Shown piece after piece: positions 34,347 to 40,040 of a stretch of DNA of 64,000 bases (positions within the stretch are counted from its first letter, which is position 1; each line of letters opens with the position of its first letter). The stretch is from Natronomonas salsuginis (lineage in GTDB: Archaea > Halobacteriota > Halobacteria > Halobacteriales > Haloarculaceae): NCBI RefSeq assembly GCF_005239135.1, contig NZ_QKNX01000001.1, forward strand, positions 682,001 through 746,000, given 5' to 3'. Under the pieces are notes generated by a model that saw only the letters and a list, made by a program, of their open reading frames with translations, was not told the DNA's origin and ran no database searches. The position numbers were made by a program, and so were the translations under genes.

Positions 34347-35087
34347 TCAGTCCCCGTCCGTCCCGGTCCAATCCCCGAACGCCCCCGTCGCCCCTGGAGG
34401 GGCGTACGTCTCGATCGTTCCGGCCGTCGACAGCGCGATCGCATCGTCGGCCGCGACGGGCAGCTCCCGGCGTCCGTCGGCGAGCAGTTCGACCGGCGTT
34501 TCGTCGCGCTCGACGCGGAGTTCGACGTCGTCGATCGAAAGGACCCAGTCGCCGGCCGCCGTTGCGAAGGGGGCGATAGGCACGATCGAGGCGACGCCGG
34601 TACCCAGTGCGACGGTCGGCCCACCGGCGTTACGGTTGTAGCCGACGCTTCCCGCTGGCGTCGACGCGACGACGCCGTCCGCTCGGAATCTGGAGATCTC
34701 CTCACCGGCACAGTGAACCGAGAACTCCGAGATCCGGGCCGGCTCGGCGGCCATAAGTGCGACGTCGAAGACGGCTCCGATCGGATCGAACGAACCAGCG
34801 GCGGTGACGACGGGATGACGCATCGTCGGCACCGATCCGTGACGGATGCGCTCGATGGACGCTTCGAGGCGATCGATCGGGACCGACGGAATCCCCTCGA
34901 CCTCGACCGCCAGTATCGGGGCATCGAGGCCGTCTCTGGCGAGATCGGTGATCGCCGACTCCGTCTCCGCGACGACGAATGCCACGGTATCGAATGCTCT
35001 GTCGTCGTCGACTGGCTCTCCCCCCGCGGCTTCGATGGCCTCGGTCACTCGTTCGCTGCCGACGATCCCGACGCGCTGTCCGCTCAT
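34347..35087 (-). CDS. NAD kinase-like protein without the GGDGT motif
   Basis: 246 residues. The C-terminal half matches the NAD kinase (PpnK) domain, with FRADGVVASTPAGSVGYNRNAGGP and an all-beta tail. The N-terminal half is shorter than usual, and the GGDGT loop that binds phosphate and carries the catalytic Asp is replaced by AFVVAETESAI. Haloarchaea usually hold one standard NAD kinase besides such a divergent paralogue. It may bind NAD without being a kinase, which is inference. It is divergent from the GGPP synthase gene. Confidence 0.8.
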   Translation of the reverse strand: MSGQRVGIVGSERVTEAIEAAGGEPVDDDRAFDTVAFVVAETESAITDLARDGLDAPILAVEVEGIPSVPIDRLEASIERIRHGSVPTMRHPVVTAAGSFDPIGAVFDVALMAAEPARISEFSVHCAGEEISRFRADGVVASTPAGSVGYNRNAGGPTVALGTGVASIVPIAPFATAAGDWVLSIDDVELRVERDETPVELLADGRRELPVAADDAIALSTAGTIETYAPPGATGAFGDWTGTDGD

Positions 35088-35178
35088 CGACCCGACCGAG
35101 GGTCGGGGGGATGAAAAGTCTCTCCGTCGATGCCGGGGGGCGTTTGCGCCTCGCTCGCGGCCACGGTGACACGGGAGA

Positions 35179-35188
35179 GTTTTTATTC
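35179..35188 (+). promoter_or_regulatory. TATA box of the GGPP synthase gene
   Basis: gtttttattc is centred 27 nt before the ATG at 35210, typical of leaderless haloarchaeal transcripts. This decides the start among several in-frame candidates upstream. Confidence 0.6.
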
Positions 35189-35209
35189 TGTCACCGCAAG
35201 CCTCGTGAC

Positions 35210-36271
35210 ATGTACGGCGTGCTTGAGGAGTGGCGGCCCGTTGTCGACGAGACCATCGAGTCGTTGCTTCCTCGAACGATCGACGACGCCTATCTCGCGG
35301 ATTTCTTCGGTGAGCCGACCTACTCGTACGATTCGGCGGCATTGCAGGGGGCGCTCTCGGATCCGATCTGGGAGCTCCTCGATCGGGGGGGAAAACGCTG
35401 GCGTGCGATCCTATTCTTGCTGTTCGTCGAAGCGTTGGGGGACGACCCGGAGGCGTATCTCGAATACGCCGTGATCCCGGAAGTGTTACACAACGGCACG
35501 ATCATCGTCGACGACGTCGAGGACGGCGCGACGCACAGACGGGGTGAACCGGCGCTCCACCACACTCACGGGATGGATATCGCGCTCAACGCCGGTAACG
35601 CGATGTACTTTCTGCCGCTGAAGATCATCACGCGGAATCCAGGCGATCTCAGAGCCGACGTTCGGCTCGACGCCTACGAGATGCTGATGTACGAACTCAA
35701 CCGAACTCACCTCGGCCAGGGGATGGACATCCGGTGGCACAATCAAAAGGAGATCGAGATCACCGACGCGGAGTACCTCGAAATGTGCGCGTGCAAGACT
35801 GGCTGTCTCAGTCGCATCGTGGCAAGACTGGCCGCGATCGTGACCGACAATCAGGGCGTCGAGCAGGCCGTCGCGAAGTACGCCGAAGACATGGCTATTG
35901 CCTTCCAGATCGCCGACGACGTGCTCGACGTGGAGTACGCCCTCGAGGAGGGCGGCGACTTCGGTAAGGGCGTCGGGAACGACATTCGGGAGGGAAAGAA
36001 GACGCTGATGGCGATCCACGCTGCGGAGAACGCACCCCCAGAGGACGCCGCGCGCCTCGAGGAGATTCTGTGGGCGGACGAGAACACGGACGAGGACGTC
36101 CGCGAGGTCGTCGAGATATTCGAGTCGGTGCGGAGCGTCGAGTACGCCCGATCGGTCGCCGAAGAGCTCTCGGAGTCGTCGAAAGCCCGCCTCGAGGGGC
36201 TCGATCTCGAACCCGAACCGGCGTCGAAGCTCGCCGCCTTCGCCGAGTTCGTCGTCGATCGTGACGTGTGA
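35210..36271 (+). CDS. idsA: Short-chain (E)-prenyl diphosphate synthase (GGPP synthase)
   Basis: Makes geranylgeranyl diphosphate (and farnesyl diphosphate) for archaeal ether lipids and carotenoids. The 353-residue protein has both Asp-rich magnesium motifs: DDVED (101-105) followed by THRRGEPALHH, and ADDVLD at about 225-230 followed by GNDIREGKKT. The spacing and C-terminus fit haloarchaeal IdsA. It opens a run of isoprenoid-related genes (two cis-prenyltransferase homologues and DUF92) on this part of the chromosome. Confidence 0.94.
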   Translation: MYGVLEEWRPVVDETIESLLPRTIDDAYLADFFGEPTYSYDSAALQGALSDPIWELLDRGGKRWRAILFLLFVEALGDDPEAYLEYAVIPEVLHNGTIIVDDVEDGATHRRGEPALHHTHGMDIALNAGNAMYFLPLKIITRNPGDLRADVRLDAYEMLMYELNRTHLGQGMDIRWHNQKEIEITDAEYLEMCACKTGCLSRIVARLAAIVTDNQGVEQAVAKYAEDMAIAFQIADDVLDVEYALEEGGDFGKGVGNDIREGKKTLMAIHAAENAPPEDAARLEEILWADENTDEDVREVVEIFESVRSVEYARSVAEELSESSKARLEGLDLEPEPASKLAAFAEFVVDRDV

Positions 36272-37106: not shown

Positions 37107-38012
37107 ATGCGCCACCGGCTCCGGGGAGCGGTTCGACGGCTCTACGAACGACTGCTCGAGCGCGAGGTATCCGGCGTGCCGACGCACGTAGCCGTCATTC
37201 AGGACGGTAACCGCCGATACGCGCGCGAACACGGTGAGGAGAAGACGGCGGGACACCGCGCCGGTGCGGACACGACCGAACGGATGCTGGAGTGGTGTGC
37301 CGATCTCGGCGTCGAGGAGTTGACGCTGTACGCATTCTCCACGGAGAACTTCGACCGCCCCCGCGAGGAGCGGGAGGCGCTCTTCGATCTGATCTCAGAG
37401 AAACTCCGCGGGTTCGCGGACCGCCCCGAAGTGCACGACCGCGAGGTCAGGATCCGCGCGATCGGCGAGATACAGCGGCTCCCCAAACGCGTTCGCGAGG
37501 CGATCACCTACGCCGAGGAGCGCACCGAAGGCTACGACTCGCTCCGCTTGAACGTCGCGCTCGCCTACGGCGGGCGCGCCGAGTTACTCGGCGTCGCCCG
37601 CGAGATCGCCCACGAAGCCGCGAGCGGCGCGTGCGACCCCGAAGATGTCACCGTTTCGGAGATCGAAGCTCGTCTGACGACGGGGCCGACGCGGGTGGTC
37701 GATCTCATCATCCGGACCGGCGGCGACGAGCGAACGTCGAACTTCCTGCCGTGGCACGCGAACGGGAACGAGGCTGCGGTGTATTTTTGCACCCCGTACT
37801 GGCCCGAGTTCTCGCGCGTGGACTTCCTGCGGGCGATTCGGACGTACGAGTCCCGACAGGAATCCTGGCGGCAGACGCGCGCTCAGCGGGCGGCCGCGCT
37901 TATCCGGGCGGCCGGTGATATCGAGCGTAACGATACTACCGGGCTCGACGACGCGACGCACGGCGGAGAGGAGATCGAGGACCCGACCGATCCGGATTCC
38001 TCCGTCATCTGA
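37107..38012 (+). CDS. uppS: cis-Prenyltransferase, catalytic type (UppS-like)
   Basis: Builds the polyprenyl diphosphate chain that becomes dolichol-type carrier for N-glycosylation. The 301 residues have the catalytic Asp33 in HVAVIQDGNRRYAR, then HRAGADTTERMLEWC, LYAFSTENFDRP and the downstream substrate motif IIRTGGDERTSNFLPWHANGNEAAVYF. After that motif the end reads YESRQESWRQTRAQRAAAL and a 40-residue acidic tail. The usual C-terminal RxG motif of homodimeric enzymes (RRFGG-like) is missing. The convergent gene encodes a relative with the opposite defect. Confidence 0.9.
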   Translation: MRHRLRGAVRRLYERLLEREVSGVPTHVAVIQDGNRRYAREHGEEKTAGHRAGADTTERMLEWCADLGVEELTLYAFSTENFDRPREEREALFDLISEKLRGFADRPEVHDREVRIRAIGEIQRLPKRVREAITYAEERTEGYDSLRLNVALAYGGRAELLGVAREIAHEAASGACDPEDVTVSEIEARLTTGPTRVVDLIIRTGGDERTSNFLPWHANGNEAAVYFCTPYWPEFSRVDFLRAIRTYESRQESWRQTRAQRAAALIRAAGDIERNDTTGLDDATHGGEEIEDPTDPDSSVI

Positions 38013-38019
38013 TCGGCAG

Positions 38020-38628
38020 TCACCGGCCGAACCGACGCTTCCGTTCTTGAAACTCGCGGACGGCACGCAAGAAGTCGCGCCGCCTGAGGTCCCGCCAGTT
38101 GACGTCGGTGAAGTATAGCTCGGAGTACACCGACTGCCAGATCAGGAAATCGGACAATCGTTCCGCGCCGGTTTTGATCACGAGATCCGGTGGCGACTGA
38201 AACACGAGCCGCCGTTCGATCTCGGATTCGTCCACGTCCTCTGGATCCAACGTTCCGTCCGCCGCGTCCCTCGCGATTCGACGGACTGCGGCGGCGAACT
38301 CCTGGCGACCGCCGAGTCCGATACTCACCTGTACCGGTGCGTCGGCCACGCTCTCCGCGCCGGGTTCGCGAATCGCGACGCTGCGCGGACTGTCGAGTTT
38401 CGACAGCGCCGCTCGAAGCGTCGGGATCACCGCCTCGTCGAGCACGCTGACATAAATCAACACCTCCTCGCCGCCAATCTCGAACGCCCACCGGAGGAAC
38501 GACGCGAGCGTGTCGTACGCGCCCTGTTCGAGGAGGTCGTGCTCGGTGATGACAAGCGCGATCCGTTTCGGAACCCCACCGTCGCTCAGGCGGATCCGTG
38601 CGGCGAGATAGCGATCGTACAGTCCCAC
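38020..38628 (-). CDS. cis-Prenyltransferase homologue lacking the catalytic Asp (NgBR/Nus1-like)
   Basis: 202 residues of the UPP synthase fold. Where the catalytic subunit has QDGNRR, this one reads VITEHDLL, so the essential Asp is gone. The later part is well kept: DLVIKTGAERLSDFLIWQSVYSELYFTDVNWRDL, and the protein ends ERKRRFGR, which holds the RxG motif. That mix is the pattern of the accessory subunits NgBR and Nus1 in eukaryotic heteromeric enzymes. It ends seven bases from the UppS-like gene in convergent orientation. A heteromer with it is an inference. Confidence 0.85.
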   Translation of the reverse strand: MGLYDRYLAARIRLSDGGVPKRIALVITEHDLLEQGAYDTLASFLRWAFEIGGEEVLIYVSVLDEAVIPTLRAALSKLDSPRSVAIREPGAESVADAPVQVSIGLGGRQEFAAAVRRIARDAADGTLDPEDVDESEIERRLVFQSPPDLVIKTGAERLSDFLIWQSVYSELYFTDVNWRDLRRRDFLRAVREFQERKRRFGR

Positions 38629-38711: not shown

Positions 38712-40040
38712 GTGACCGGAGACATAGCGCGCGCCATCGGCTACCTCCTCGTCGGGAGCGCGACGCTCCTCGCTCCGGTCTTGGACGGGCGAGTACACGA
38801 AACGATCGCAGCCATCGGGACCATCGCTCCCTTCGCGCTGCTCGCAGCCGTCGCGCTCGTTTCGACTGATGGACCGCTGTTCGAACTCTTCGCCCGCGAC
38901 GGCGATCGAGACGAGGACCGGCTACACAGTCTCGCATCGTTCTGCTTCGCCGTCGCGGCGTTGGCGTTCCTCTTCGTCGCGCTCGATCTTCCACTCGCCG
39001 CCTTCGTCGCCGCGGTGTTCGTCCTGACTGCGGGAAATCTCGGACAACGCGTCGTGGTCTCTCGCATTCCCACACCCGTCGCGGGAGCTTCGGCCTTCGC
39101 GGCGCTCGGAACGGTCGCCGCGACCGCGGCGGTGTTCGCCGCCGGACGGCTCGGTGGGACGGTGCCCACATCGCCGACCGTCCTCTTCGTCGTCGCGAGC
39201 GGCGCACTCATCGGTGCGCTCGTTCGGACGACGCTGTCACCGTTCGACGATTCGTTGGTGTTGCTGTCGGTCGGGCTCGTCATATGGTTCCTGCTCGGAC
39301 TGGGTGTCGAGCCGTCCCTCGAACGGTTGGCAATCGGCTTGTCGGTGACGATCGCGCTGGGATACGTGGCCTACGCGCTCGGGACGGCCTCTGTCACCGG
39401 TACCCTGAGTGGGGTGTTGCTCTCGCTTTGGGCGATCGTCCTCGGCGGCTACGGCTGGTTCGCGCTCCTTATCACGTTCTTCGGCCTCGGCGGGCTGGCG
39501 TCGAAGTATCGATACGACGAAAAACTCGCCCGCGGTATCGCACAGGAGAACGAGGGTGCGCGCGGAGGCAGCAACGTACTCGCAAACTCCGCGGTCGCCC
39601 TCGTCGCCGTGGTCGCGTACGTCGCCGCAGAGGGAATGGGTATAGCCCCGGTCGTCTTCCAGTTCGCCTTCGCCGGTGCGGTCGCGGCCGCGCTCGCCGA
39701 CACGTTCTCCAGCGAGTTCGGCGGCCTCTTCGACTCCCCACGGCTGATCACGACGCTCGAACCCGTCGCCCCGGGGACCGACGGCGGCGTCACGTGGCAG
39801 GGCGCAGTCGCCGGGGCGACCGGCTCGGGCCTCATCGCTGCGCTCGCGCTGTTCTTCTTCGATTTCGGCCCCTTGGCCACGTTCACCGTCTTCGGTGCGG
39901 GCGTCCTCGGGATGGTCGTCGATAGCCTTCTGGGCGCGACACTCGAGGGGGATCGAGTTGGAAACCAGACGGTCAATCTGCTCGCGACGCTCTCGGCCGG
40001 ACTCGGGTGCGCGACGGTGGCACTCGTTCGCTTCGTATGA
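38712..40040 (+). CDS. DUF92 family membrane protein
   Basis: 442 residues with about twelve membrane helices and a GTG start. The second half has the DUF92 core: SKYRYDEKLARGIAQENEGARGGSNVLANS, ADTFSSEFGGL and MVVDSLLGATLEG. Relatives include plant VTE6, a phytyl-phosphate kinase, and animal TMEM19, so phosphorylation of a prenyl phosphate is a reasonable expectation. The neighbouring cis-prenyltransferases make dolichol-type substrates plausible. The N-terminal 200 residues appear specific to archaea. Confidence 0.85.
   Translation: MTGDIARAIGYLLVGSATLLAPVLDGRVHETIAAIGTIAPFALLAAVALVSTDGPLFELFARDGDRDEDRLHSLASFCFAVAALAFLFVALDLPLAAFVAAVFVLTAGNLGQRVVVSRIPTPVAGASAFAALGTVAATAAVFAAGRLGGTVPTSPTVLFVVASGALIGALVRTTLSPFDDSLVLLSVGLVIWFLLGLGVEPSLERLAIGLSVTIALGYVAYALGTASVTGTLSGVLLSLWAIVLGGYGWFALLITFFGLGGLASKYRYDEKLARGIAQENEGARGGSNVLANSAVALVAVVAYVAAEGMGIAPVVFQFAFAGAVAAALADTFSSEFGGLFDSPRLITTLEPVAPGTDGGVTWQGAVAGATGSGLIAALALFFFDFGPLATFTVFGAGVLGMVVDSLLGATLEGDRVGNQTVNLLATLSAGLGCATVALVRFV

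Follow-up and report, generated by a model that had tools for sequence, protein, structure and literature searches.

Two convergent genes of the haloarchaeon Natronomonas salsuginis very probably encode a single heteromeric cis-prenyltransferase of the DHDDS/NgBR type that makes a glycosyl-carrier polyprenyl diphosphate. We infer the physical complex, the need for the RxG tail, the substrate, and the product from motif states, conservation, co-occurrence in genomes, predicted fold, and gene order. Both genes lie in the window, the 64,000-nt stretch of DNA that was analyzed (GCF_005239135.1, NZ_QKNX01000001.1, positions 682,001–746,000 of the forward strand; table 1). An earlier sequence-only reading had assigned QDGNRR with Asp33 and a C-terminus without RxG to the plus-strand protein, and VITEHDLL and a terminal RRFGR to the convergent protein; the translated sequences bear out these assignments, and the genes are indeed separated by the seven bases that it placed between them. 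In particular, the plus-strand protein ends in RTYESRQESWRQTRAQ, with no RxG at the position of E. coli R242-x-G244, and the minus-strand protein ends in KRRFGR. DGNxR and RxG together on one chain, as in a homodimeric UppS, are found in neither protein. PF01255 is covered at full length by the plus-strand protein (301 aa; positions 1–216 of 219; 2.4e-69) and at positions 115–219 only by the minus-strand protein (202 aa; 3.8e-27); the second subunit is easily overlooked because only half of the family model is matched. These two are the only PF01255 genes in the whole genome. A trans-polyprenyl synthase gene (PF00348; window positions 35063–36271, plus strand), the product of which could supply a GGPP primer, precedes the catalytic gene by about 0.8 kb on its upstream side.

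Table 1. Positions in the window of the cis-prenyltransferase gene pair, its motifs, and the neighboring DUF92 gene
Feature	Position	Strand	Match or support
Putative catalytic subunit of cis-prenyltransferase, DHDDS-like, 301 aa	37107..38012	+	PF01255 2.4e-69; AF2 model
QDGNRR, residues 32-37, with catalytic Asp33 (E. coli D26)	37200..37217	+	D26/G27/N28/R30 in 113/114 catalytic-type proteins
STENFDR, residues 78-84, equivalents of E. coli S71/E73/N74/R77 and DHDDS E81/N82/R85	37338..37358	+	
C-terminal tail of catalytic subunit, 66 residues after WPEF, without RxG; long low-confidence predicted helix	37812..38009	+	
7-bp gap between convergent stop codons	38013..38019	.	
Putative non-catalytic RxG subunit, NgBR/Nus1-like, 202 aa, GTG start	38020..38628	-	PF01255 C-terminal half 3.8e-27
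VITEHDLL, residues 26-33, at place of catalytic DGNxR motif	38530..38553	-	
RFG, residues 199-201, C-terminal RxG motif	38026..38034	-	R242/G244 equivalents in 137/137 partner proteins
DUF92 (PF01940) membrane protein, head-to-head with RxG subunit	38712..40040	+	PF01940 1e-52

Across the phylum Halobacteriota, each of the two motif states goes almost without exception with one of two kinds of protein, which rules out chance as the cause of the split. Loci from the whole phylum supplied 114 proteins of the catalytic type and 137 of the partner type, which were aligned with eight bacterial UppS sequences, human DHDDS, and NUS1. Equivalents of E. coli D26, N28, R30, S71, E73, N74, R77, R194, R200, and S202 are each present in 113 or 114 of the 114 catalytic proteins; for D26, N28, R30, S71, E73, N74, and R77 the count is 113, that of the window included. 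The DGNxR motif was found in none of the 137 partner proteins; R30 is replaced by leucine and G27 by glutamate (126/137 in each case), and the S71–R77 segment is missing. Every one of the 137 partners retains R242 and G244 of the RxG motif. Among the catalytic proteins, RxG is found near the right place in three of the 114 and at the tail of none of the 64 from haloarchaea. That partners which have lost their own active-site residues invariably keep RxG is most sensible if the motif acts on another chain. E. coli Glu213 was considered as a further complementary residue, being invariant in the RxG subunit and NUS1 and Cys in DHDDS, and was rejected because most catalytic subunits carry a two-residue insertion there, which leaves its aligned state ambiguous. 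In one haloarchaeal genus (g17; G011, G037, G064, and others), the RxG subunit was matched as two pieces, which suggests that an insertion interrupts the protein near its middle.

The human complex suggests what the tail might do. There, the tail of NgBR reaches across the dimer interface, and its RxG motif contributes to the two substrate sites of DHDDS and contacts E81, N82, and R85 (PMC7573591). Such contacts between subunits also occur in homodimers. The motif cannot be taken as an absolute marker, since yeast Nus1 is functional although it lacks a canonical RxG (PMC7573591). The haloarchaeal catalytic protein retains the E-N-F-x-R segment that the tail contacts in the human complex. It has the tail contacts but no such tail and its partner has the tail but no active site, for which an obligate heteromer is the simplest account. 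In the mechanism that we propose, the plus-strand protein would provide the active site, with Asp33 and basic residues binding the allylic diphosphate and IPP, and the minus-strand protein would act as a pseudo-prenyltransferase, joined to it at the usual cis-prenyltransferase dimer face. The RRFGR tail of the minus-strand protein would cross the interface and complete the substrate sites of its partner, in the manner of NgBR with DHDDS. The complex would add IPP units in cis, probably onto geranylgeranyl diphosphate, and the resulting polyprenyl diphosphate of roughly C55–C60 would become the dolichyl phosphate that serves as the carrier in the N-glycosylation of haloarchaea. The carrier length (about C55–C60) and the geranylgeranyl diphosphate primer in this scheme are general background.

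Predicted structures and sequence profiles are consistent with this assignment. The AF2 models of both proteins have the cis-prenyltransferase fold, with a pLDDT of 83 and a pTM of 0.81 for the RxG partner and a pLDDT of 72 and a pTM of 0.69 for the catalytic subunit, the tail of which is poorly predicted. In Foldseek searches against the PDB, the nearest solved folds of the partner model were DHDDS chains of the human cis-prenyltransferase complex (8e-13), and those of the catalytic model were UppS and DHDDS. The best solved match of the catalytic-family profile was human DHDDS (8e-65, 222 bits), above E. coli UppS (211). The partner profile reached human NUS1 at 2.2e-7 over its length, and bacterial UppS scored better.

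The two-part gene set is nearly universal in the phylum Halobacteriota. A full-length catalytic gene is present in 291 of the 292 haloarchaeal genomes, the exception being a 120-contig draft (G071), an RxG gene is present in all 292, and both occur together in 291. The partner profile matches 290 of the 292, missing one divergent copy (G217) and one copy apparently cut by a contig end (G235). Across 247 genomes of the phylum, at least two PF01255 genes are found in 239, one in five, and none in three. G298, G307, and G316, which all belong to family f18, are without PF01255; this suggests that the lineage does without this carrier-lipid synthase or that the assemblies are incomplete. Each of the 14 non-haloarchaeal genomes that were read in detail has one catalytic and one RxG gene, to which a Methanosarcina-like genome adds an MM_0014-like gene. 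PF01255 genes outside such pairs include a third, distant one at L133 (G002:C1:478925-479599), with a reading frame some 600 residues long and a protein unlike either subunit, and a catalytic-type gene on the Methanohalobium evestigatum plasmid pMETEV01 (L235), with no RxG partner among the annotated genes within about 4 kb on either side. The co-occurrence across haloarchaeal genomes that the sequence-only reading proposed to check is found, and independent variation of the two genes, which it had named as evidence against a complex, was looked for and is confined to a few genomes with extra catalytic copies.

These extra copies accompany a single RxG gene at ratios of 3:1 (G225) and 2:1 (G104 and G067), and another genome (G194) has two complete pairs. 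Where catalytic genes outnumber RxG genes, a single partner may be shared by several catalytic proteins, or a catalytic protein may function by itself. It is nevertheless improbable that the plus-strand protein is a self-sufficient homodimeric synthase that operates without RxG while the minus-strand protein tunes chain length, stability, or membrane attachment. Against such an enzyme stand the absence of RxG from all haloarchaeal catalytic proteins (0/64) when every partner has it (137/137), the joint occurrence of the genes in 291/292 genomes, and the poor activity of DHDDS without NgBR (PMC7573591), even though the plus-strand protein has all catalytic residues, a few genomes do carry unmatched catalytic copies, and RxG lies near the right place in the three catalytic proteins noted above. 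We strongly favor the heteromer.

Gene order was compared in 72 haloarchaeal genomes with coordinates listed for both genes; these genomes are the top-scoring entries of the list, and percentages drawn from them are indicative. The genes are convergent within 1 kb in 36 of the 72 and at 1–5 kb in 13; all 49 pairs within 5 kb are tail-to-tail, and no other orientation was found at that distance among these best-scoring genomes. The remaining 23 have retained both genes unlinked. Tail-to-tail pairs also occur beyond the haloarchaea (L097, L099, L100, L103–L105; Methanoperedens and Methanocellales loci). Since unlinked genomes keep both genes and other families have the tail-to-tail pair, adjacency is either ancestral or recurrent and is not required. 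Therefore, the adjacency of the two genes, on which the sequence-only reading drew, holds for the window but does not stand as a requirement.

On its other side, the RxG gene has a conserved neighbor. DUF92 is single-copy in all 39 haloarchaea searched and stands head-to-head with the RxG gene in each of the best-scoring 30 loci (L033–L062). The same arrangement is found in Methanoperedens, ANME-2, Methanocellales, and other families of the phylum, and it is absent from the Methanosarcinaceae and ANME-1 loci examined. Further head-to-head loci are L107–L109, L118, L187, L192, L195, and L223. PF01940 includes plant VTE6, a phytyl-phosphate kinase, and our guess is that the DUF92 protein is a candidate for polyprenol or dolichol phosphorylation, a role that the conserved linkage makes worth testing. 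DUF92 linkage often persists where the catalytic gene is unlinked (e.g., L045, L047–L049, L118, G017, and G033), as might be expected if the minus-strand protein were a degenerate paralogue with a separate job, such as binding polyprenyl lipids for the DUF92 protein, and did not pair at all. We consider this highly improbable given that the only known role of the invariant RxG tail is in the active site of a partner, that the RxG and catalytic genes, when near each other, are tail-to-tail in every case, and that the RxG subunit retains the fold and the dimer half.

The phylogenetic analysis bears on when the enzyme was split. The tree has 55 rows, its archaea come from the phylum Halobacteriota only, without Asgard, Thermoproteota, or other archaeal UppS, and its NUS1 row consists of the letters of PDB 6w2l_B, which residues 3–164 of the NUS1 query match exactly, the first two being unmatched. 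In this sampling of one archaeal phylum, the archaeal catalytic subunits form one clade (97/91), and human DHDDS adjoins them (93/87). The RxG subunits of the same tree form one group with weak support (87/57), and the NUS1 branch, with a length of about 6, is too long to place. For archaea of one phylum, the tree fits a single ancient split common to archaea and eukaryotes. We tentatively raise the possibility, which we regard as rather doubtful, that the eukaryotic heteromer came from an already-split archaeal ancestor, with DHDDS derived from the catalytic subunit and NgBR/Nus1 from the RxG subunit, and that the split predates eukaryotes; the archaeal enzyme would be linked to a DUF92 membrane protein that is possibly a polyprenol or dolichol (phosphate) kinase.

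A heteromer of this kind has a precedent in the same phylum. Methanosarcina mazei MM_0618 and MM_1083 are reported to form a heteromeric cis-prenyltransferase whose C45–50 products are probably precursors of glycosyl carrier lipids (Emi et al. 2019, doi 10.1016/j.bbrc.2019.09.143, as cited in PMC8131916). Both systems are archaeal and consist of two different cis-prenyltransferase paralogues, so the haloarchaeal pair extends a known kind and is not the first archaeal case. The proposal of a heteromeric dolichol-type synthase is accordingly supported by motif states, co-occurrence, and predicted fold, but not as an archaeal first. In a Methanosarcina genome there is exactly one gene each of the MM_0014-like, catalytic, and RxG types, and MM_0618 and MM_1083 should be the latter two, an assignment made by exclusion from Methanosarcina genomes other than that of M. 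mazei. In the Methanosarcinaceae loci examined, the pair is unlinked and has no neighboring DUF92 gene, whereas the window pair is adjacent and convergent. MM_0014/MA1831, also an archaeal cis-prenyltransferase paralogue, is a separate enzyme, made of a single chain and relaxed in its choice of acceptor, and is not close to either window subunit. HVO_2535, guessed to be a haloarchaeal uppS locus, was rejected as an unrelated glycoprotein.

Like the window pair, human DHDDS/NgBR (NUS1) combines a catalytic chain without RxG and a non-catalytic chain with it. NgBR, however, has an N-terminal membrane domain (PMC7573591), whereas the haloarchaeal RxG subunit (202 aa) begins directly with the cis-prenyltransferase domain, and compared with DHDDS the C-terminal extension of the window catalytic protein is short and its helix poorly predicted. 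The bacterial homodimeric UppS (E. coli IspU) has the same fold and catalytic residues but carries DGNGR and RRFGG on one chain, the motifs that are divided over two chains in the window.

In a search that covered few subscription journals, no publication or assay of the haloarchaeal pair was found. What is new here is the near-universality of the pair in the phylum, its tail-to-tail order, the conserved DUF92 neighbor, and, with one archaeal phylum sampled, the position of DHDDS beside the archaeal catalytic subunits. The enzyme in question would build the long lipid that supports the assembly of sugar chains, and haloarchaea are among the best-studied archaeal N-glycosylation systems. If our reading is right, their carrier-lipid synthase would be identified as a two-gene enzyme, which would account for any failure of assays that use only the catalytic protein. 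Small soluble pairs would also become available for studying how an RxG tail completes an active site, and a possible archaeal origin of the split human enzyme, defects in which cause disease, would become testable.
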